From contig CP126199.1 in the NCBI GenBank assembly GCA_030272155.1, positions 3,212,501 to 3,276,500 of the forward strand: 64,000 bases of DNA, given 5' to 3'. Source of the DNA: Tetradesmus obliquus (taxonomy: Eukaryota; Chlorophyta; Chlorophyceae; Sphaeropleales; Scenedesmaceae). The notes under the pieces are model-generated. The model saw only the letters and a list, made by a program, of their open reading frames with translations. It was not told where the DNA came from and ran no database searches. Below are positions 16,085-64,000 of the stretch, piece by piece. Position numbers and translations under genes: made by a program. The stretch's first letter is position 1; each line of letters opens with the position of its first letter.

Positions 16085-17370
16085 CACACAGCGGCGCAAG
16101 CAGACACACACACCTGGATGCCCGCCCACATGAGCGTAGCGGCACAGGCCCCCAGCACACTACACCACAAGAGCAGCGCAAGCAGGCACACACACACACC
16201 TGGATGCCCGCCCACATGAGCGCAGCGGCACCGGCACCCAGCCCACTGCACCACAAGGGCGGCGCAAGCAGGCAACACACGCACACCTGGATGCCCGCCC
16301 ACAGGAGCGGCACAGGCACCCAGCCCACTGCACCACAAGAGCGGCGCAAGCAGGCACACGCACACCTAGATGCCCGCCCACATGAGCGGCACAGGCACCC
16401 AGCCCATTGCACCACAAGAGCGGCGCAAGCAGGCACACACACACACACCTGGATGCCCGCCCACAGGAGCGGCACACCCACCCAGCCCACTGCACCACAA
16501 GAGCAGTGCAAGCAGACACACAAACAGTTGGATGCCCGCCCACAGGAGCGGCACAGGCACCCAGCCCACTGCACCACAAGAGCGGCGCAAGCAGGCACAC
16601 ACACACACCTGGATGCCCGGCCACATGAGCGGCACAGGCACCCAGCCCACTGCACCACAAGAGCAGTGCAAGCAGACACACAAACACTTGGATGCCCGGC
16701 CACATGAACGGCACAGGCACCCAGCCCATTGCACCACAAGAGCGGCGCAAGCAGCCACACACACACACCTGGATGCCCGGCCACATGAGCGGCACAGGCA
16801 CCTAGCCCACTGCACCACAAGAGCGGCGCAAGCAGGCACACACACACCTGGATGCCCGGCCACGAGAGCGGCTCAGGCACCCAGCCCATTGCACCAAAAG
16901 AGCAGTGCAAGCAGACACACAAACACATGGATGCCCGGCCACATGAGCGGCACAGGCACCCAGCCCATTGCACCACAAGAGCGGCGCAAGCAGGCACAGC
17001 CACACCTGGATGCCCGGCCACATGAGCAGCACAGGCACCCAGCCCATTGCACCACAAGAGCGGCGCAAACAGGCACACACACACACCTGGATGCCCGGCC
17101 ACATGAGCGGCACAGGCACCCAGCCCACTGCACCAAAAGAGCGGCGCAAGCAGGCACACACACACACCTGGATGCCCGGCCACATGAGCGGCACAGGCAC
17201 CCAGCCCACTGCACCACAAGAGCGGCGCAAGCAGGCACACACACACACACACCTGGATGCCCGGCCACATGAGCGGCACAGGCACCCAGCCCATTGCACC
17301 AAAAGAGCGGCGCAAGCAGGCACACACACCTGGATGCCCGGCCACGAGAGCGGCTCAGGCACCCCCCCAC
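16085..17370. repeat. Minisatellite, 16 units of about 81 bp
   Basis: Sixteen copies of a unit marked by TGGATGCCCG occur at about 16115, 16201, 16288, 16368, 16449, 16529, 16610, 16689, 16769, 16849, 16928, 17007, 17088, 17169, 17253 and 17331, a mean spacing of 81 bases (range 78-88). Each unit contains a CACCTGGATGCCCG block, CACATGAGCGGCACAGGCAC, a CCCAGCCCACTGCACCACAA block and GAGCGGCGCAAGCAGG, followed by a short variable CA run that causes most of the length differences. Three units carry AGCAGTGCAAGCAGACACACAA in place of the usual end, so a variant subfamily exists. Several frames stay open across the array, which is a by-product of repeating a stop-free unit. Confidence 0.95.
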
Positions 17371-24279: not shown

Positions 24280-26648
24280 GGCGCAGCCGCCCGTTGTAGA
24301 GTTTGGTCCGTACTTCTCGCAGCATCCTGTGCGGCAGTATGTTGGGCACGCAGAGGACATACTAGACATCAGCTGGAGCGCAGGTGGGCAGGGTGGGACA
24401 AACCATTTGGGTGGCACTGTGCATCTGCTGCTTGCGTTCTGTGCCGCGTGCAGGCACGCAGCAGCCTCAGGATGTTGCAATGCTACTCCCTCCTGCAGTA
24501 TTTGTGTGCATTGCTGTGCACCTCGCTAGCATTGCTGCTGGGCGGCGCCCCTAATAATGTACAGACGTAATGCAATGTAACAGGCTATGGATGAGTGATA
24601 GGTCTGTATGGCATGCTGCACGTACTAGTTTGCACATAGCAAGCCAGCTGGCAACATAGCATTGATGCTGCTGTGGCATGTGGCGTGTGGCGTGCTGTGC
24701 AGGCGGCTTCCTGCTGAGTGCCTCGCTGGACAAGAACGTGCGGCTGTGGCACCTGTCGCAGCCGGGCTGCCTGCGCGTGTTCTGGCACACTGACTTTGTG
24801 ACCAGCGTGCAGTTCCACCCGCTGGACGCGCAGCGCTTCGTGTCAGGTGGGGCGGCAGCTGCTGCTGCGGCTGCTGTGCATTTGGGATGTCAGCAGGCTT
24901 GGGCGAATTGATGGCTTGCCTGCAGGCCCTGGGTTCATATCTGACTTGCTGCGCTTGTTTCACGTTGTCAAAGCAACGCAGGCTCACTAGGGCTGCTAGC
25001 AGCATGGTCTGCGCCAGCTGTTAGTATGCCCTGCAAGCAAGTAAGCAAGCAGCTGGGGTAAGCGTTGCACTCCTCATTGTTACAGCGTGCTCTAGACCTG
25101 TTGGCAGGCAGCTTCAGCTCTTGTGTTGTGCCACACAGCACACCGCAACCCTGTGCACTCAGCAGCTGTCTGACAGGCCAGCCACATGCTGTACAGCTTC
25201 ACGTCCGCGCCTCTCTCACCTAAACCTGCTTCCTGCTAAATCCACCTTCCTGCCATAACGTACACACAACACCTGTGCAGGCTCCATAGATGGCAAGATC
25301 CGCGTGTGGAGCATTGCAGAGCAGCAGCAGGGCGGCGTGCTGGCCACCGCGCAGCTGCACCAGGACATGGTCACGGCGGTGGGCTTCAGCCTGAGCGGCG
25401 GCCGCGTGCTGGCGGGCACGATGCGCGGCCGCGTGCGCTTCTACGAGCTGGCGGAGCGCAAGCTGGAGTACGTGGCGCAGGTGCGGCTGAAACTTCATGG
25501 CTATTCTGTGATCAGCTGCATGGGGTGTGGAGGCGTGAGGTGGGGCAAGGGGGTGTGCTGACTAGCAGCATGGTTCGGTGTTGCTGGCAGAGCGCAAGGC
25601 TGGAGTGCGTGGCGCAAGTGAGGGGCGCAGCTCGGCGCAGCTCAGCAGGTGTGCAACACGTCACGTGGAGGGTGTGCCTTGAGGGTTGCTGTTGTGAGCT
25701 GGCGGAGCGCAAGCTGGAGTATGTGGCGCAGGTGAGAGGCACGGCTTGGGTTTGTGGCGGCTGCGTAGGTTGGGTGTGCTGGACGATGCGCTGTTGGCTG
25801 GCAGCATGCGCCTCTACGAGCCGGCGGAGCGCAAGCTGGAGTACGTGGCGCAGGTGCGGTGAAGTACAGTTTGTGGCCGCGCAGCTGGGAGGGATTTTGG
25901 GACAAAGACACGCTGTATGTGTGTGTGCATGCTGTAGCACCAACGCATACCTGCAGCACATGAAGGTATGCCTGTCATGGCACGTGCAGGCGTTGCCTCT
26001 GGTCAGACGGCCACTCAATGCCAGTTAACGTGCGCATTGTGCTGCTGTGTGCGCATGCAGGTTGACGTGCGCAACCAGCGCGGCCAGCACGCCAGCGGCA
26101 AGAAGGTCACAGGCATCCACGCGGTGCCAGGCCAGCCTGGGCAGTTCCTCATCACCACCAATGACAGCAGGCTGCGGCTGCTGGACGGCTACGGCATCCT
26201 GCTGAAGCTGAAAGGCCACCGGAATAACAGCACGCAGATACGCGCTGGCCTATCCCTTGATGGTAGCCAGGTGGTGTGCGGCAGCGATGATGGCTGGGTG
26301 TATGTGTGGCAGCTGGGCCCCAAGCAGATGGCTGCAGCTGGCAGCAGCAGGCTGGCTGTTGCTGCACAGGACCTGCAGGGCTTAGCGGGCAAGAATGCGG
26401 TGTATCAGGCATTCCAGGCACATGATGCTGGCGTGCCTGTGACGGCTGTTGCGTTTGCGCCGCCTGGCGTGTGTGATGGGCGGCCGTCGGTGCTGCTGAG
26501 CCACGCAGCGGGTGGTGCGGCTGCTGCTGCCGCAGCAGCGGATGGTGAGGGTGTGGCTGTGCGGCCTGGGTTTGCGGGGCGCACCGTGCAGAGCCTGCTG
26601 GTGTCTGGTGGCTTCAGTGGCGCCATCAAGGTGCACGAGCTGCTGTGA
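22012..26648 (+). CDS. WDR44-like WD-repeat protein
   Basis: Model: join(22012..22053,22251..22340,22469..22533,22731..22947,23219..23823,24034..24383,24703..24846,25281..25480,26061..26648), 766 residues, all phases closing. Exon 2 carries FVIKNLDTGLEMRIDDF, the N-terminal signature of plant/algal WDR44-type proteins. It is followed by a basic AKKASAISKKAVTGIKEA segment, then Ser/Ala/Gln-rich spacer (exons 5-6). WD repeats begin near residue 300: WVVAFSRDGSFLAAAGQDC ending VLRVWQL, VGHAEDILDISWS joined to FLLSASLDKNVRLWHL, TDFVTSVQFHP ending IDGKIRVWSI, MVTAVGFSLSGGRVLAGTMRG, GIHAVPGQPGQFLITTNDSR and LSLDGSQVVCGSDDGWVYVW. This gives a seven-blade propeller. In animals WDR44 binds Rab11 and acts in endosomal recycling; an equivalent role here is inference. 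Decayed copies of the end of exon 8 lie in the last intron. Confidence 0.9.
25587..25853 (+). repeat. Three decayed copies of an exon end inside a WDR44 intron
   Basis: The last about 36 bases of exon 25281..25480, coding LAERKLEYVAQ, recur with their donor at about 25587-25622, 25696-25731 and 25771-25853. The third copy is longest and also resembles the upstream part of the exon. Reading on from the true exon meets a stop at 25559-25561, so the copies cannot simply extend it. They are decoy 5' splice sites produced by local duplication. Confidence 0.88.
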
Positions 26649-28834: not shown

Positions 28835-30660
28835 ATGGCGGACAACCCAAAGCAAAAGCACCGTGGGGCGCATGTAGATGCCGAAACGGTATTTAGCAAC
28901 TACCAGGTGCGTGTCGTGCGTCCAATGCAGCTTGCCAGCTCTGCATATTCTGCTGCCCATTCAACCAGCTGACAGCTGCTGCAGCACTGTGCATCAGCAG
29001 CTGAGAAAGCAAGGGCACATCCCCCAACAATGTGTGGCCCCACAGCCACTTTGATGAGAAACTCTCATTTCTCTTTCAGTCCTGGGCTGTGGGTTCACAC
29101 AGACACATGTGCCGCGCACCTCAGGCTGAACTCCTTGCACTGCTGCATACCGCGTGTTGGCACACCTATTGAAATTTTGCCGCTGCCTGCTGCCTGCCGC
29201 CCAACCCACCCTCACCTTTTCCGCCACCCTTCAACCAACTCCACTCCCGTCACAAACTCTCCCAGGCCATCACCAGCAAGACCTTCCTGGTGAGCCTGAT
29301 GGTGGAGTTCATCGGCACCATGATGTTCACCTTCCTGGGAAGCACCGTCACAGACAAGGTGAGAGACTACTGCCGCTGTTTGAATGCCAGCGGCGCACCG
29401 TCTGCCCGCATCATTGCTGTATGCCGCATGGCTGTATGTTGACCGTGCTGGGAAGCACCGTCACAGGCAAGGTTAGAGGGTTCATGCACACATCTGGCTG
29501 CTGCTGCCTGGCTGGATCGGGCTGCAATATTAATGGATGACCCCTGAGCCATACGTTCAACATGCTGTGTGGCGTGCTGCCTGCCGCTTCCTTTCAAACA
29601 ATCTGCATGTGTGCGCAGTGTGCAGCCTAGTCTCACCAAGCTAGTGGCCTCTAGCCCTGCGCTTCACCGTGCATGCAGCACATGCGCTATCAGAGCGGCA
29701 GCTTGTTAGCCGGCAGCAGCACCTGCATTGCGCCAGACGTGCACTTTGATGTTCAAGGCAGCTGATGCGTTGCTGCGTGTGCTGCTGCAGGTGTTTGGCC
29801 CCTGGGTGAATGGCCTGGCCTTGGCTGTATGGGGTGAGTGCCATGCGACATGCCATGTTACGGTATCTGGCTCCCAGAAACATGTGGTGGCCTTGTTGCT
29901 GCTGATCAGGCGTTGCACGCATGCTCGGATTGCACAGTCAGGTCCCTTGCACCACACATCGCCTGTTTGAAGTGGCATCATATGTATGCTTCTGCCGTTC
30001 TGCACTGCAGTGTATTCTGCCGCCAACATCTCCGGAGGCCACTTGAACCCTGCTGTCACCTTCAGCACCCTCATCTGCGGCTTCTACCCGGTACGGCAGC
30101 GCTGCATTATGTCGACAAAGTGATGCCTATCAATAGAATGTTGGCAAGCTGCCATCCAGCATTCCTCAACTCAAATGTACTACACGAACAGCTGAGCCTG
30201 AAAAGCGGCAGGACGCGTCAGTTGCTGATGTGCAGTGCTGAGCCCTGGTGCTGGGTGTATAATCAATGAAGTGGTGGCATTACACATGTGCTGCGAGATA
30301 AGAGCCTCATACCGGGCAGACGCAGCAGACTTTCTCTGTGTGCTGCACAATTCCAAGCAAAAACATCACCTCAGCGCACATGAAAAGAGTCAGGCTGAGA
30401 CGCCTTCATGTGACAAGCTGTTGTTGCTCGTCTGCAGGTGCTGCACTCCGTCCTCTACGTCATTCTGCAGGTGCGCTCACTCTGTCACATATCCAGTGTG
30501 TTCAAGTACTGCTGGAATGGAACTGCAGCATTACTCATGTGCAAAGCCCATGTTATGCACATCTGCTATGACAGCGCACATGCCTGCAGTGCTAGAACCG
30601 TACCTGCCGCGCCAGTGCACAGCCACGCCAACACTTTTTCAAACACCCGCCTGCCTACCC

Positions 30661-54279: not shown

Positions 54280-57200
54280 ATGCTTTGCCGTGCAAACAGC
54301 GCTGCAGCACAGCAAAGTAGAGCTTCATCGCAACGAAAGGTGTTCAAGGCAGCAACTGCTCGGCGTAGTGTAGCTGTGCAGGCAGGCATGCTGGACAATA
54401 TGCTGAAGAAGGTGGTAGGCAAGGTAAGAGCAGGGCAGTTGCTGTTCTGCAAGCAGCAGACAAGCAATGATGGGTGCAGGAAGCACATTGCAGCCAGTTG
54501 CCCACCAGCACCAAGATGAAGGCAGCAACGGGCCAGCCGCACAGAAGAACCAGCAACTGCTGCAACCTCCTACTATCACCGCTGCCCCGTGTGCTGTTGT
54601 CATTCTTCGAACGTACTCACCTCAAGCAGACTAAAGCACACCCGCTTGCAGCTGGCTGTGACAGTAATACCTGTACCGATTGCACTGCAAGGCTGCTGTC
54701 TGGCTGCTGAGTGTTTGTTGATGAAAAAGGTTTTTGTCGCCATGGCAGTTGCAATTCCTGTCTGTCTGGCTGGCAGCAGCACCGCCACAGCAGTACTGCT
54801 GCATCTGTTCCTGCAGGCTGCCAAGCCCGCCGCGATGAGCTTTGCTGACAACGCCCCAAGCTGGGAGGTGCTCAGCAACATGGTCAAGGTGACAGGCTGA
54901 GGCAGCAGACAGTCAGCACCACTGCGGCCTAGCCGTAATGAAGCAGCAGCAGCCAGTCAAGCAGACAATGGCTGGTCTGGCCTCAGCCCACCGCACAATT
55001 CGACTGCTGGCCCCAGTGTCAGCAATGTGCTACGTGCTTGTGCAGTGACACGGAAGCAGAGCCAGGTGTAGGCAGCAGCAGCAGCAGCAACACGGAAGCA
55101 GAGCCAGGTTGTCCAGCTGCCCGCAGCATCACACAGTTGGACATACTGTGGCTGCATGCACACACGTCATGTTGTGGCGGTCTGAGCTGTCCAGCAGCTG
55201 TATCTCACAGTACACAGACTAGCGCCTTGTCACTGCAGGCCCAGGAGGCTCAGTTGGGTGTGCATTTCACGGCCCCTAACCTTCAACCCCACGGCCCCTG
55301 ACTGTGAATCTCACTGCCTCTGACCTTGTCACTGCAGGCCCAGGAGGCTGAGTTGGGTGTGCATTTCACGGCCCCTGACCTTAAAGCTCACGGGCCCTGA
55401 CTGTGAACTTCACTGCCTGACCTTGTCACTGCAGGCCCAGGAGGCTGAGCTGGGTGTGAACTTCACTGTCCCTAACCATGAACCTCACGGGCCCTGACTG
55501 TGAACTTCACTGCCCCTGAACTTGTCACTGCAGGCCCAGGAGGCTGAGTTGGGTGTGAACTTCACGGCACCTGACCTTGAAAACGGGCCCACCCACCCTC
55601 TGTCCCTCAAGCGCACCTTTGGCTCCACTGAGCCAATCAGGGTGAAGCTGTACAGAGACCACGCAGGTGCGCAGCAGCAGCAGCAGCACCAGCAGCAGCA
55701 GTTCCAGTTTCGGCGGCAGCTTAGGCAGCAGCGGCAGCAGCTGCAGCAGCTGAGGCAGCTGAGGCATGTGAGAGATGGCAGTTGTGGAGTTGCAGGGCTA
55801 CGGGCGGGTACTTGAACTCACTTAGATGCGAGTACCTGTGTGAACATGAACACTGCATGGCTGCTGGCTGTGTGCGCTCACCATGCTGCTTGTGGCTGCC
55901 TGTGAACGTTGTGCAACTGCAGGGTGGTGCCCCTACTGCCAGAAAGGTGAGTTGCAGTGCTAAAACAAGAAGCATTGTTGACAAGCATATGGTTGGTGCC
56001 CAGACAGGCTCTAGCAACAAAAAGGCTGGGACGGCTGATTCCATTTGTTACTCACCTGCAGATTGTAGGCAGCCAGCTGTCACAGCAGTACATGGTTTGA
56101 AGCAGCAACAGTGCAGAGAAGGTGTGGTGTTGGCCTGTGCTGACGCCTGCATGCGGCGCAGTATGCAAGACCAGGTGCATGACCTGCTGACTTTCCTATC
56201 AAGCCTATCGAATCGCACTGACGTGAACGTTGCTTCTCTTCTGCTGCTGCTGAACTGTGACGCATCACATGTCACATGTGCAGTCTGGCTGCAGGTGAGC
56301 TGGCTGTGTGCCTTGGCTGCTGCAGCTGCAGGCGCAGGGTGCAGCTTGCACTGCCTGCTGCAGCAGTCGCCAGTTTGCATGTGGATGCGTGCAGAGGAAC
56401 CCTGTTGTGGCATGTTTATGTATGGTTCCTTGCTTCTTAGGTTTTAAACATGAACCTTGACTGAAGAAGCTGCATAGCCTGCATGGTTGCTGCACAGCCG
56501 GTTACGCTGCCTGCTCAAGTAATGGGATGGCTGTTGTTGCACCTGCAGCTTGAGGAGAAGCGCATCCCCTACACCATCGAGAAGATCAACATGCGCTGCT
56601 ATGGCGACAAGCCGCCCTCATTTCTGGCAAAGGTACAATATAGGTTGCTGCTGCAGCAGCAGCTGCATCAGAACCGCAGCTATTGCGCTTGATGAGCATG
56701 GCGCCAGGCGGGCCGGCAGCCATGCCCTTATCGTGACTGTTTTGACCTGTCCTTTTCCATGCACATCTTGGTGGATCGCGGGCTTGCATGTGCCCTGGGT
56801 GTTTGCATTATCATACATGCTCTGGCACGGCTAGCACAGTGCCTCAACCGCGCATCCCCCAATCCTACATGCGCTGCTGGAAACGGACAACGCTGGACCT
56901 CATGACTGTATTGTGGCACCTCTTTGCAAAACCTTCGCCTGCAGGTGCCATCTGGGCTGCTGCCTGTGCTGGAGATTGATGGCCGTGTCGTGACAGAGTC
57001 GGCCACCATCATGGCGCTGCTGGAGGAGCAGTTCCCCAACCACAAGCCGCTCATGCCCGCGCCCAACAGCCCGCAGCGGCCGCGCGCGGACCAGCTGATG
57101 CGGCTGGAGCGGCGCTTCTTCTCAGACTGGCTCAACTGGCTCTGCAGGTAGGTGTTACTAACACATGCTGTAGTACAAATTGCAACTGCACAGGTTTTGG

Positions 57201-60200
57201 TGGAGCTGTAGCTGTAGCTGTCGCGCGGTGAGCTGTTGAGTTGTTGTTGCTGGAGCGGCGCTTCTTCTCGGACTGGCTCAACTGGCTCTGCAGGTGGGCG
57301 ACTGGGCAGTATTTAGTTGTAGCTGTGGCTGTAGCTGTGGTGCGGTGTTGACCAGCTGATGCGGCTGGAGCGGCGCTTCTTCTCGGACTGGCTCAACTGG
57401 CTGTGCAGGTAAGTGTTACAGAATGCAGCTGCACAGGCTTTTGGCTGTAGCTGTAGCTGTCGCGCGGTGTGCTGCTGAGTTTGTGTCGCTGGAGCGGCAC
57501 CTCTTCTATGACTGGTTCAACTGGCTGTGCAGGTGGGCAACTGTGCAGCAGCTACTTGGTCACACAGTAAACACTGGCGGCTGTGGTGCCCCGGCTGTGC
57601 GATGCTTGCGTGCGTTTGTAAGACTGCTGGCAGCAACTCGCACTGCCAGCGCGCATGGCTGTTGCGGGTGTTTGCTGCTGCTGGCGTTGTTTGCGTGCCA
57701 TGCATAAATGTAACCATTTTAATTATGTGTCAACAACTTGTAACGGTGATGATATTGCTGCTGCAGTGGCTGGAACGGGCCGTCCGCGCAGGCGCAGCTG
57801 GAGCGCACGCTGCAGGCCATCTGCAAGGAGCTGGAGGCTGACGGGGTGAGCGGGGCCTGATGGTGCTGCAGCGAGTTCAGCACCATGCAATTCCATGCAA
57901 TTCGGTCTACTACAATGCTGTGCAACGTCAGTGAGGGCTGCTTCAGGACACCAGCTGATCTGTGTCTGTGCATCTGTGTGTGCGCAGTGTATGCACATGC
58001 GCATGCAGGGCCCCTGCTTCATGGGGCCGCGCGTCAGTTGCATCATCAAGTTCTCTGCTGGTGTGTGTTTGTGCCTGTACATGCATATATATTTGCAGCC
58101 TTGGGGCTTCTTTCTCACTGGCCACAACGTCCGTGGACATCAGTCTAACACCTTCTGTCACACGTTTATCTGCTCTTGCGCATTTGTCTCCTCCCTCAGG
58201 GCCCCTTCTTCATGGGCCAGGACATCAGCCTTGTGGACATCACCTTTGCGCCCATGCTGGAGCGCGCCGCAGCCAGCCTGGCCTACTACAAGGGCTTCGT
58301 GATGCGGGGGGCCGGCAAGTTCTCGGCGCTGGAGGCGTGGTTTGACGCCATGGAGGCGCGCGACACCTACCTGGGCACAAAGAGCGACCACTACACACAC
58401 GTGAGGCGGCAGTTGGGCAGGGGCGGTGTTTGCCTGGGTATGAGCACGAGCAGCGGGCAGTGCGCTAGTTGTGCCTGGGTGCATGCCGCTGGGCAGGCGT
58501 TGTACTTGATGAAATATAGTCTGCCAGTTTCTGATATGATGTGGGCAGCTAGTCGGAGGCGTGGTTTGACGCCATGGAGGCAAGGGACACCTACCTGGGC
58601 ACAAAGAGCGACCACTACACACACGTGAGGCCGCGGGGTTGATTGCATGGTTCAGTAGCACAAGATGCAGCAGCAGCGGCAGCAGGTGATGGTTTGCTGT
58701 GTGCTGGGCGTTCTGTGCTTGTGTGCTATCTTGCTGGACCAGCACCGCCTTGCGGACCAAAGACACGAATGCAATACGGGAGATTTTGTGTGAGAACTGG
58801 CGACTGCAGTCTGTTTGACGCAAGGCATTTGGTGCAGCATCAAGCATATGGCTCCGCTGACAAAGCAGCCGTTTGTGGGTCCCAGTTGCTTGCCTCACAT
58901 CACCCATTGCTGCTGCTGCTGCTGCTGCTGCTGTTCTTTCTGCCTGCTTGCCTGCCTTGCAGTGCCATGACCTGCCACCACAGTTGGGAGGTGCGTCTGC
59001 TGCTGTGCCAGGAGCAATAGGGGAGCAGCTGTCGCTGTTTTTGCTGTGGTGCTTCTATTTGCTGTGCCGGTTATTCCAAGCCACTACTGCATACTTGCAT
59101 TCTGGCTTGTGTGTGCATCATGATCAGCTTGTGAATCGCATCCAGATGCACGGCTGTGCATCACTCGACAGATGCTCAGCCCATGTTGCAGCTTGCCTGA
59201 GGTGATGAGTGCTTGTTACCTATAATGCACTCACTTCTTGTTTGTTTTGCCAGGCTGCTACTCGACGCCGGAGGGTGAGCTGTTTGCGGCAGCCCTGGAC
59301 GGCCAGGATGGCGCCAGCTGGCACCTGCCGCTGCCGCCGCTGAATGCCACATCATCGCCGGAGGCGTACTCGCCAGGGGAGAACCCGCCAGTGGATAGAC
59401 TGGCGGCAGCAGCGCGGCTGGTGCGTGGGCTGGGGCATTGGCGGTATGTGTTTAGTTATGTCGTTGCTGGAGGCAGTGAGACTGGGTGGAAAGCTGGGTA
59501 ATGGTCCAATGTCTGCCGCTGCGACTGATCTGTTAGCTGCCTGCTGTGTGGTTCTAGTTTGAACTGTGCAGCAGCATTTCACTGCTCACGCTGCCCCTCA
59601 TCTGTCCTGCTTCAGGTCGCCAACCACGCAGCAGTCGGCAGGTTTGCGCTGCGTGGCGCGGGCCAGCCTGGCCCCCGGCCTGTGTCAGCGCCGCTGGCTG
59701 ACCCATCTGGCGTGGCAGCGCTGCAGCATGAGGCAGCCATGGATGCAGCGCTGCGGCATGTTGCGCATGCGCTGCTGGTGGGCGTGCAGGAGAAGCAAGT
59801 CATGGAGCATGCGCTGCAGGTGTGTGTATCTTCGTGCGGCTGGCTGGCTGGCGATGTTAGGATGTTGAGTTGTGTGCAGGTGTTGGCACTGCTTGCTGTT
59901 GCTTCTGGCTAGGCAATATGGGATGCACTAGGCAACGCATGCGCCCTCATCATGACACCGCGGAACAGGGCTTTGGTGCAAGCAGCATTGCGATTCTGAA
60001 GCTCGTGCCACCTTCAGTTCAAAATGCTGGGCGTTAGGACAGCCCTGACAGTGTCAGGACAGGGGGTGTTTTTTGCCCGCTACAAGGCCCAGTGCTGGGC
60101 TCTTTTGCTCCCTGGTTAAAACTTGACGCTGCTGCTGCTGCTGCTGCTGTTGCTGTTACAGGTGCAGGAGGCTGGCGAGCTGGATGGCGCGGCTGCTGGG

Positions 60201-60415
60201 CGTTGCTCCGCATCCTGTTTGCCTGCTAACTTCTGCTGCTGCTGCTGCTGCTGCAGGTGCAGGAGGCTGGCGAGCTTGATGGCGCTGCTGTGGCCGCGTC
60301 AGCAGCGTACCTGCGCGACCGCGTGGGCGTGCCGCGCGACATGAAGCTGCCTGCAGCACGCCAGCTGCGTGCACACCTCAACTGGCTCATTGATAGCCTG
60401 CAGCCCGCCAGCTAA
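54280..60415 (+). CDS. Plastid glutathione S-transferase-like protein (CPYC type)
   Basis: Model: join(54280..54423,54817..54888,55534..55666,55923..55946,56284..56294,56549..56632,56945..57147,57767..57845,58200..58400,58963..58990,59254..59420,59616..59819,60257..60415), 502 residues, all phases closing. The first about 35 residues (MLCRANSAAAQQSRASSQRK onward) look like a plastid transit peptide. The thioredoxin-fold GST N-domain starts with RVKLYRDHAGWCPYCQK (CPYC at 119-122), then an 11-base micro-exon coding VWLQ, LEEKRIPYTIEKINMRCYGD, VPSGLLPVLEIDGRVVTESA and IMALLEEQFP. The helical C-domain follows with SAQAQLERTLQAICKELEAD, GPFFMGQDISLVDITFAPML and GAGKFSALEAWFDAMEARDT, plus a C-terminal extension beginning LPPQLGGCYSTPEGELF that is typical of the plant/algal subgroup. 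The CxxC site suggests glutaredoxin-like thiol chemistry. Exon edges are duplicated at five places in its introns. Confidence 0.9.
55227..55560 (+). repeat. Four tandem copies of a GST exon start with its acceptor
   Basis: TTGTCACTGCAG followed by GCCCAGGAGGCT occurs with exon-like starts at 55239, 55338, 55435 and 55534, spacing 97-99 bases. Only the fourth continues into the real exon. Copies 1 to 3 keep an intact acceptor and open frame for about 20 codons (AQEAQLGVHFTAPN and variants) but each ends in HGP and a TGA stop. Using an upstream copy would truncate the protein. Confidence 0.93.
57090..57535 (+). repeat. Four tandem copies of a GST exon end with its donor
   Basis: The end of exon 56945..57147, coding LERRFFSDWLNWLC and followed by a GT donor, recurs at about 57250-57293, 57349-57408 and 57488-57532. 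Spacing from donor to donor is 146, 115 and 124 bases. The copies are nearly identical at the nucleotide level, the last being most diverged (HLFYDWFNWLC). The spacers also share a GCTGTAGCTGTAGCTGTCGCG segment. Confidence 0.93.
58008..58065 (+). repeat. Diverged copy of a GST exon start
   Basis: After a CATGCAG acceptor, GGCCCCTGCTTCATGGGG resembles the start of the real exon at 58200 (GGCCCCTTCTTCATGGGC). Its frame stays open as GPCFMGPRVSCIIKFSAG and meets a possible donor (GTGTGT). The match is weaker than at the other sites. Confidence 0.6.
58556..58624 (+). repeat. Duplicate of GST exon 9 end with donor
   Basis: About 69 bases, coding EAWFDAMEARDTYLGTKSDH and on to the donor, repeat the end of exon 58200..58400 with only a few changes, 224 bases downstream. 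The GTGAGG donor is kept. Confidence 0.93.
60162..60280 (+). repeat. Duplicate of last GST exon start with acceptor
   Basis: GTGCAGGAGGCTGGCGAGCT follows a TTACAG acceptor at 60162 and again a CTGCAG acceptor at 60257, 95 bases apart. Each copy is preceded by a CTG run. Use of the first acceptor would put the rest of the exon out of frame. Confidence 0.9.
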
Positions 60416-62249: not shown

Positions 62250-64000
62250 CTGCTGCCAGGTACATAGCGCAGCTGCAGGTGGAGCAATGGAACTCCACCA
62301 GCATAGACGCGCGCGTGGGCAACTACGAAAACCCCATGGACCCGCGGTGCGCCCAGCAGCAGTAGCAGCAGCAGCAGTATAAAGAGCTGCAGGCAACACA
62401 CTTTGCAACAGCACAATGCAACGTAATGCGTACTTACATAGCTGGAAGGGACCCCCGCCAGCAGCAGCAGCGGCCGTCGGTAACAGTGTGAACGCTGGAT
62501 ACAGCAAGCGTAACACCTGCTGCTGCCGCCGGACTGTTTGTGGCCCTAGAAGCAGCCGTATCACAGAAGCAGCGCTTGGTGCAGCCAGCTGAAGCGTCAT
62601 CCTTGTGACAGCCAGCTGCATTGGGTGCCAAGCAGGCTCAGAAGCCGCAGGCTGTACAACAGCAGCAGCAGAACACTTTTGCAGAAGCACGATTTTTGGA
62701 GACTGCGTTCGCATCCTAGGGTTGCTGGTGCTCAATGTGCCTCCTTAGCTGTTCCTGTCTGATGTGCGGCAAATGGGTGGTGTTTATACTTGCTGCACGC
62801 TGCCCTGTTGCTGCTGCTGCTGCTGCTGCCAGGAGCCCCATGGGCTTCACCTTCTACCTGGCCATCATCAACAACATCTTCAGCATAGCAGGGTTGGCAG
62901 GCGTGCTCAATGCACAGGTACAGCTGCAGCAACACATATACACACGGTGGCCTGCAACGTGTTGGCAACTTGCATCTGCTGCAGCGGTTGTGAAGTATCA
63001 AGCTATTGCAAGTGCCTACGCAATGCATTTGTACTGCCTATGCCAAGACCTGCACATTGCACAGCCTGGAGGCCCGTGCCAGCACCACCACGCTTGTACC
63101 TATCAGCGCCTGGTGTGCATGGACCTCACATGTCTCATGCTGCTGACAAGTACTTGCTCATGGCTGCTTGATAACCAGCAACAGCTTGCCAGCCGCGGCT
63201 GCAGCACCATCTTGCAAAATCAAACTTGTTCCAAGCTGCCGCTGCATGTCTGCTGTCATTTTGCGCGTCATGTGTGCTGCTGCCTCCATTGTGGCGTGCA
63301 GCGTGAGCTGGTGATCGCGTTCTTTGCCTACAACGCGGCACAGATGGTGCTCAGCTTCCACTTCTTCGTGGACATGGCCACAGACGCAGGTGGGGGCACA
63401 TAAACGTGCACCACATCCTTAATGTGTTGTGCAACACGCCTTGTTGCAGTGCTGCTTCTTGCATCTCGTACACACAGATGGTGCTCAGCTTCCACTTCTT
63501 CGTGGACATGGTCACAGACGCAGGTGGGTCGTAGCTTGCGCACAACACATCCCTGGTATGTTCAAGAGCACACCATGTTACAGTGCTGCTTCTTGCACAG
63601 TGCTCAGCTTCCACTTCTTCGTGGACATGGTGACAGACGCAGGTGGGGGCACAGGCGCCACAAACTATGGGATGGTACTGTGTTTACAAGCATGCTGCTG
63701 CTTGCATCTGTGACGCATACCTGCAACTCTCAGTAGTGGTTCCGCTTGCTGCTCAAACAGCTTTGCTGCTGCGCGGCCTGGCCACCGCCTGAACATCGCC
63801 TGGTGCAGCCGCCCTGCTTGCACGCTTCAAACTGCTACACATACTTCAATCACAGCCCACTGCTGCTGCTGCTGCCGCTGCTGCTGCTGTTGCTGCTCCT
63901 GCTGCTGCCGCAGGCATCAACTACAGCGGCGAGCCTCCCATGCTGACCGCGTACGAAAAAGCCTCTGCTGCCTTCCTGTTCTTCAACTTTGTGCTGTCTG
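61829..64000 (+). CDS. Multi-span membrane protein, 3' end beyond window
   Basis: Model so far: join(61829..61932,62260..62346,62833..62917,63302..63389,63914..>64000), phases closing. The start ATG gives MRSGCGVLCIGAAQLVVGLC, a first membrane span with little before it. A hydrophilic loop follows (YIAQLQVEQWNSTSIDARVG with an NST sequon, then ENPMDPR), then a span (GFTFYLAIINNIFSIAGLAG), another in REL-VIAFFAYNAAQMVLSFHFF, and the start of a fourth (SAAFLFFNFVLS) at the window end. Four spans with one larger loop recall tetraspanin- or MARVEL-like topology, but I see no CCG motif and make no family claim. Tandem copies of the fourth exon's end lie in the intron after it. Confidence 0.72.
63339..63642 (+). 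repeat. Three copies of an exon end with donor
   Basis: ATGGTGCTCAGCTTCCACTT and the following bases to the GACGCAG|GTGGG donor occur at 63343-63389 (in the exon), 63478-63523 and about 63599-63642. Donor spacing is 134 and 119 bases. The copies differ by one or two bases (GCC, GTC and GTG at one codon). The second and third are each preceded by a CACAG that could act as an acceptor. Confidence 0.93.

Follow-up and report, generated by a model that had tools for sequence, protein, structure and literature searches.

The 64,000-nucleotide stretch of Tetradesmus obliquus DNA analysed here (the window) carries a 13-exon GST gene in which the start of the third exon occurs four times in tandem (Table 1). 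The predicted protein contains the Pfam domains GST_N and GST_C, and its best PDB match is Sll1902 of the cyanobacterium Synechocystis (E = 3.5e-70), which extends over residues 85–332 of 502. By eye the N-terminus resembles a chloroplast transit peptide, and weak matches of the C-terminal part to phycoerythrin alpha chains and to the C-terminus of Sll1902 were also seen. As exon 3 starts at residue 73, the match to Sll1902 begins 12 residues into this exon, and this homology identifies the productive copy of the exon start. When a 210-residue part of the GST was searched against the genome we obtained seven hits, all inside the host gene, three of which are intronic copies of exons (G000 C9 3271047, 3269847 and 3269732); this protein search found no second GST locus in the genome.

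Table 1. Exons of the GST gene, decoy exon starts and further copies of splice junctions, in window coordinates
Feature	Position	Strand	Basis and remarks
Host gene, 13 exons, 502-aa Sll1902-like GST	54280..60415	+	open frame of 1509 nt, no internal stop
Exons 1–7	54280-54423, 54817-54888, 55534-55666, 55923-55946, 56284-56294, 56549-56632, 56945-57147	+	
Exons 8–13	57767-57845, 58200-58400, 58963-58990, 59254-59420, 59616-59819, 60257-60415	+	
Four-copy tandem array over exon 3 acceptor, unit 97–99 nt	55225..55578	+	TRF, repeat search, self-BLAST, pattern search
Decoy head 1, AQEAQLGVHFTAPNLQPHGP then stop	55239..55301	+	weak acceptor, score 3.52, 12th percentile
Decoy head 2, AQEAELGVHFTAPDLKAHGP then stop	55338..55400	+	acceptor 6.88, 43rd percentile
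Decoy head 3, AQEAELGVNFTVPNHEPHGP then stop	55435..55497	+	acceptor 7.13, 48th percentile
Productive exon 3 (copy 4 and remainder of exon)	55534..55666	+	acceptor 7.00, 46th percentile; homology begins inside
Donor-type array, exon 7 tail and donor; copies end at ~57293, 57408 and 57532 in intron 7	57103..57537	+	self-BLAST, sequence; also in protein search
Candidate weak, old copy of exon 9 acceptor and head	58005..58040	+	by eye; not in significant self-BLAST pairs
Copy of exon 9 tail and donor (source 58331-58410) in intron 9	58555..58634	+	self-BLAST, protein search; 95% identical, donor GTGAGG in both
Copy of exon 13 acceptor and head (source 60230-60290) in intron 12	60135..60195	+	self-BLAST; 90% identical

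TRF describes the array as 3.6 copies with a period of 99 (or 196) and 89% matches, and the acceptor plus the head of exon 3 start at 55239, 55338, 55435 and 55534, i.e., at spacings of 99, 97 and 99 nt. A 25-base acceptor probe, for which up to three mismatches were allowed, matched four times in the 64 kb, each time exactly, and gave no match in 100 shuffles. Each unit comprises the acceptor (~14 nt), the exon head (60 nt) and a spacer (~24 nt), and all four copies have the AG. The initial annotation had described an array of this kind, with three upstream copies that keep the acceptor and the frame of a GST-like exon but stop after about 20 codons and with the fourth alone productive. Our analysis bears this out: TRF and the probe recover the copies, heads 1–3 translate to 20 residues and then reach TGA (55299–55301, 55398–55400 and 55495–55497), and head 4 stays open and joins the rest of the exon in the 13-exon model with homology to Sll1902 and the Pfam GST match.

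The TGA of copies 1–3 is the first codon of the repeat spacer and was duplicated with the unit. It lies within a CTGAC motif located 38–40 nt upstream of acceptors 2–4; before 312 predicted acceptors, CTRAY motifs peaked in the bin 40–49 nt (23), followed by 50–59 nt (15) and 30–39 nt (12), and no CTRAY is present in the 60 nt upstream of the acceptor of decoy 1. As the TGA sits in the CTGAC of the spacer at a branch-point-like distance, the "built-in stop" is at the same time a branch-point-like motif, one that was inherited and not independently built. Gapped pairwise alignments of the copies contain 4–10 substitutions and 0–5 gap columns over 74–75 aligned columns, and the head of copy 4 is 3 bases shorter than those of the decoys. 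The differences between decoy and real copies in the first 48 nt of the head are distributed 8/2/6 over codon positions 1/2/3, a pattern that, in these small numbers, shows no coding constraint on the decoys. A 22-base sub-repeat common to spacer and exon head extends over 55358–55578 (TRF consensus TGTGAACTTCAC.GCCCCTGAC), so that the acceptor region may itself come partly from exon sequence; the resemblance by eye of the spacer to part of the exon head likewise suggests a nested duplication. The array thus spans intron and exon sequence around a single splice site, whose signals the copies inherited, which is what defines a tandem duplication across a splice junction; its AGs are 97–99 nt apart, not the few nt of NAGNAG-type tandem acceptors. 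A search of the whole genome (104,662,953 bases in 17 contigs) matched the array DNA only to itself, and on this ground we rejected a dispersed mobile element as the source of the array. An origin of the spacer as an inserted element with long target duplications was considered and dropped.

Copies of splice junctions are present elsewhere in the same gene. Self-BLAST of the gene (E 1e-3, low-complexity filter on) identified eight repeat pairs at four places, and all eight pairs are at splice junctions, namely the acceptors of exons 3 and 13 and the donors of exons 7 and 9. The copied exon 13 acceptor scores 11.5 compared with 16.2 for the real one. Other predicted genes of the window have exon-end and donor copies at 25427–25863 (92–97% identical) and 29323–29478 (88%), and a donor array of three copies lies in the next predicted gene at 63347–63653 (GACGCAG then GTGGG; TRF unit 134 nt, 80% matches). 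The top-scoring TRF tandem array of the window is a 79-base minisatellite of ~16 copies at 16096–17364 (CACACACCTGGATGCCCGGCCACA...).

We sampled the genome at round-number positions on the 17 contigs, taking 29 stretches of 10 kb, which together with the window make up 354 kb and 30 loci. Genes were modelled with a home-made Viterbi gene finder that splits genes and takes some decoys for exons; because of these imperfections only exons above score and length cut-offs were used. We discarded settings under which genes were merged or split, and for the later sample tests the curated GST exons were put in place of the predicted ones. The resulting 348 exons have 623 junctions, of which 523 were probed and 100 were dropped because of a low-complexity exon-end probe. 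A junction copy was defined as a match of at least 22 bases to a 27-base probe, located within 1 kb on the intron side and outside confident exons, and the splice-site bases themselves played no part in finding the copies. The junction search gave 8 copies without masking versus 61 with masking.

Copies in the adjacent intron were found for 68 of 523 exon ends, for 29 of 522 intron probes placed 31–57 nt from the junction, and for 3 of 316 exon interiors; the excess of exon ends over intron probes has a Fisher p of 4e-5 and a P of 0.02 when bootstrapped by locus. With 30-base probes placed 10 nt inside the exon the peak values were 37/254 for donors and 23/239 for acceptors, and the same probes matched the flank of another junction at none of the offsets tried. 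The 68 exon ends yield 109 rows at 100 distinct places, the rows being more numerous because neighbouring repeated exons can share a copy. GT or AG is found exactly at the boundary in 95 of 109 rows (87 of 100 places) compared with 85% expected by drift (p = 0.59); by type, 53 of 65 donor rows (86% expected) and 42 of 44 acceptor rows (84% expected) are intact. The decoy scores at least as high as the real site in 56 of the 95 intact rows, and overall decoys are weaker than real sites (median difference 0, Wilcoxon p = 0.0007).

These copies occur at 17 of the 30 loci and unevenly so, with L028, L006 and L026 contributing 32 of the 68 exon ends. One 10-kb stretch (L028, 1–10000) contains copies of 13 exon ends of both donor and acceptor type, a density which suggests that some genes are hot spots. 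Our homology check of the copies covered three loci: the gene of L019 matches spliceosomal Snu114 proteins, that of L010 the intron-binding protein Aquarius, and the L012 prediction old-yellow-enzyme reductases. Based on this homology, their copies sit in the introns of real conserved genes, and segments that the gene finder repeated in the L019 and L010 predictions occur once in the matching proteins. Two genes for parts of the spliceosome, the Snu114-like and the Aquarius-like, thus themselves carry junction copies. BLAST of the same 354 kb (E 1e-5, low-complexity filter on) gave 74 direct-repeat pairs no more than 1.5 kb apart, comprising 40 pairs of a junction copy with non-coding sequence, 20 with both members non-coding, six exon-internal with non-coding, four junction with junction, two junction with another exon part, one with both members exonic and one mixed. 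By eye, several of the 20 non-coding pairs begin with CAG followed by coding-like sequence, and so some of them may be exons that the models overlooked, or copies made from other copies.

Based on these observations, we think it probable that the array is a tolerated local tandem duplication over the intron 2/exon 3 junction with drifting decoys, and one case of a wider habit. A tandem duplication would have happened to straddle this junction and grown to four units; normal protein would be made each time the transcript is spliced into the copy that continues into the remainder of the exon, and with normal protein still produced selection would tolerate the array, the extra copies remaining as decoy splice sites that drift and decay. 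The wider habit of the alga would consist of short local duplications that leave exon ends and splice sites in the adjacent intron. That duplication is the origin, that tolerance is the cause of survival and that decoy use is low is what we infer from the anatomy and frequency of the copies. The unit boundaries, which cut through intron and exon and include the stop-bearing spacer, were counted for plain duplication, as were the junction position of all eight repeat pairs of the gene, the frequency of exon ends with an intronic copy and the retention of GT/AG near the level predicted by drift; the potato case described below is a precedent.

The initial annotation had gone further and proposed a splicing-based dosage control, in which some transcripts would enter decoys 1–3, encounter the TGA and decay, thereby setting the amount of GST. 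One part of this holds: with acceptors 2 and 3 scoring like the real one their use is plausible, and an in-frame stop follows, as it does after all three decoys. The built-in regulatory design is the part not backed by the sequence, in which the three stops trace back to one inherited spacer and comparable arrays are present elsewhere in the genome. On a score trained on the analysis's own predicted genes, acceptors 2, 3 and 4 are about equal and just under the median of gene-model acceptors and copy 1 is weak (Table 1); given this near-equality, the choice among copies 2–4 is not readable from the sequence. Dosage control would gain from the strength of decoys 2 and 3, from their CTGAC lying near the commonest CTRAY distance, and from the 14 acceptor bases, which differ between copies by 0–1 as against 3–8 in the first 48 head bases. 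The latter is a weak hint of selection, to which the intact AGs of the acceptor-type copies in the sample may be added, and is compatible with slight constraint on the decoy acceptors, though far from proof. In addition, Scenedesmus acutus, which belongs to the same algal family, has yielded transcripts with premature stops from another gene (PMC12899622). Against dosage control, similar decoys are common in the sample and their splice sites are not kept clearly better than by drift; with junction copies at 68 of 523 exon ends, their abundance does not fit a device dedicated to a single GST gene. Nor is the GST gene a splicing-factor gene of the type known for such decay loops. We consider dosage control unlikely; should the array influence dosage at all, it would do so incidentally, through leaky splicing into decoys 2 and 3. 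It is less likely still that the decoys serve as alternative microexons of 19 or 21 nt ending at an internal GT, which would add short segments and no stops: our gene finder did chain them in this way (55338–55358 with 55435–55455 in one run, 55435–55455 in another), and in potato an intron arose with a cryptic donor activated by a comparable duplication (PMC4974935), but the internal donors are at the 4th–6th percentile of gene-model donors and the same GTs sit unused, by homology, in the productive exon. These weak donors and the pattern of codon-position differences also led us to discard the idea that a decoy is a protein-coding cassette. Assemblies are error-prone at tandem arrays; however, the four copies are not identical, as the substitutions and gap columns given above show, and the pattern recurs at 17 of 30 loci, three of them checked against conserved proteins, so that we regard an assembly artefact as very improbable.

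Returning to tolerated duplication as the preferred account, 25 intron-only copies from the first 264 kb diverge from the corresponding exons by 6.5, 5.2 and 15.1% at codon positions 1, 2 and 3, which is roughly what a neutral copy should show when compared with an exon under constraint; position 3 is somewhat above the simplest neutral value. A longer tandem unit would leave residual similarity between the intron flanks, and such similarity was above the 99% null level in 10 of 38 cases and above the 95% level in 13, leaving 28 and 25 cases, respectively, without it; a first, less sensitive flank test had revealed no excess over its control. The 10 positive cases appear to be decayed tandem duplications, and decay thus accounts for some cases and not for all. 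At 30-base probes centred 5 nt into the intron the copy frequency falls to 0.31 (95% interval 0.21–0.44) of its peak, compared with 0.74–1.0 at this offset in six settings of a neutral simulation of duplication plus decay. This edge at the splice site is sharper than the simulated one and counts against plain duplication and decay; together with the traces found in 10 of 38 cases only, it led us to reject decaying long tandem units as a full explanation. The alternative is copying anchored at the splice site, in which breaks or template switching near exon ends, or RNA-templated repair, would preferentially copy an exon end with its splice signal into the nearby intron. In its favour, among 39 spaced pairs (gap of at least 30 nt) the copy stops no more than 9 nt past the splice site in 26, and the copied intron share departs from uniform (KS p = 1e-9), although local alignment adds a few chance bases and the 39 pairs come from 16 loci and share junctions, and are therefore not independent; the simulation lacks the sharp edge, and exon-interior copies are rare. 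Weighing against it are the cases with significant traces of a longer tandem unit and the focal array itself, an ordinary tandem repeat that includes its spacer, and we know of no mechanism for such copying. We hold anchored copying to be a doubtful explanation, and duplication plus decay to be the best general account, to which some further anchoring at the splice site, whether mutational or selective, may have to be added. As a slightly better but still tentative proposition, an ongoing process tied to the splice site itself may place copies of exon ends and their splice sites in the neighbouring intron, so that about one exon end in eight has a ready-made decoy.

Several known systems resemble parts of this picture. 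Introners are dispersed families of one element, and like them the algal copies reflect a genome-scale process that adds splice-site-bearing sequence to genes; unlike them, the copies stay local, each derived from its own exon, and the same sequence was not found at many loci, the genome search placing the array DNA only at itself. In poison exons and alternative acceptors coupled to nonsense-mediated decay, use of an upstream site leads to an early stop, as use of decoys 1–3 would with a TGA after 20 codons; however, the GST gene is not a splicing-factor gene and its decoys are known from their sequence. A closer parallel is the RdRp gene of potato (Ma, Lan and Niu 2016, PMC4974935), where a tandem duplication over an intron-exon boundary gave two copies and a new intron with RNA reads in support. 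As in potato, the algal duplication spans the intron acceptor and the head of the next exon and the splicing signals are inherited; unlike in potato, the array has four copies, three of them stop-ended, is known from its DNA sequence, and belongs to a pattern seen at many junctions of one genome. The Rogers model derives intron gain from tandem duplication of an AGGT-containing exon, with cases in Drosophila (PMC2891723). It shares with the alga a local duplication that yields extra splice-competent sites for the spliceosome to use or ignore, and differs in that the algal junction pre-existed, the copies lie inside an old intron and no new intron is shown. Of the papers listed in our searches of an open-access library, none was seen to report intronic junction copies in Tetradesmus or Scenedesmus.

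The presence of splice-competent junction copies at about one in eight probed exon ends is the part that specialists would find surprising. The origin of introns and the choice of the spliceosome between near-identical sites are old questions that have mostly been studied on single events, and here one gene offers three decoys beside its true acceptor, and the sample provides copies at 100 distinct places for 68 exon ends, with the dinucleotide intact at 87 of these places. By counting reads there, one could quantify how position and context influence the choice of site while the sequence is held nearly constant. There is also a practical side, in that gene finders may take the copies for exons, as with the segments repeated in our Snu114- and Aquarius-like predictions that are single in the matching proteins. 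If anchored copying is true, the genome of this alga would be a natural place for novel introns and alternative splice forms to arise, and a good system in which to study the spliceosome's selection among near-identical sites.
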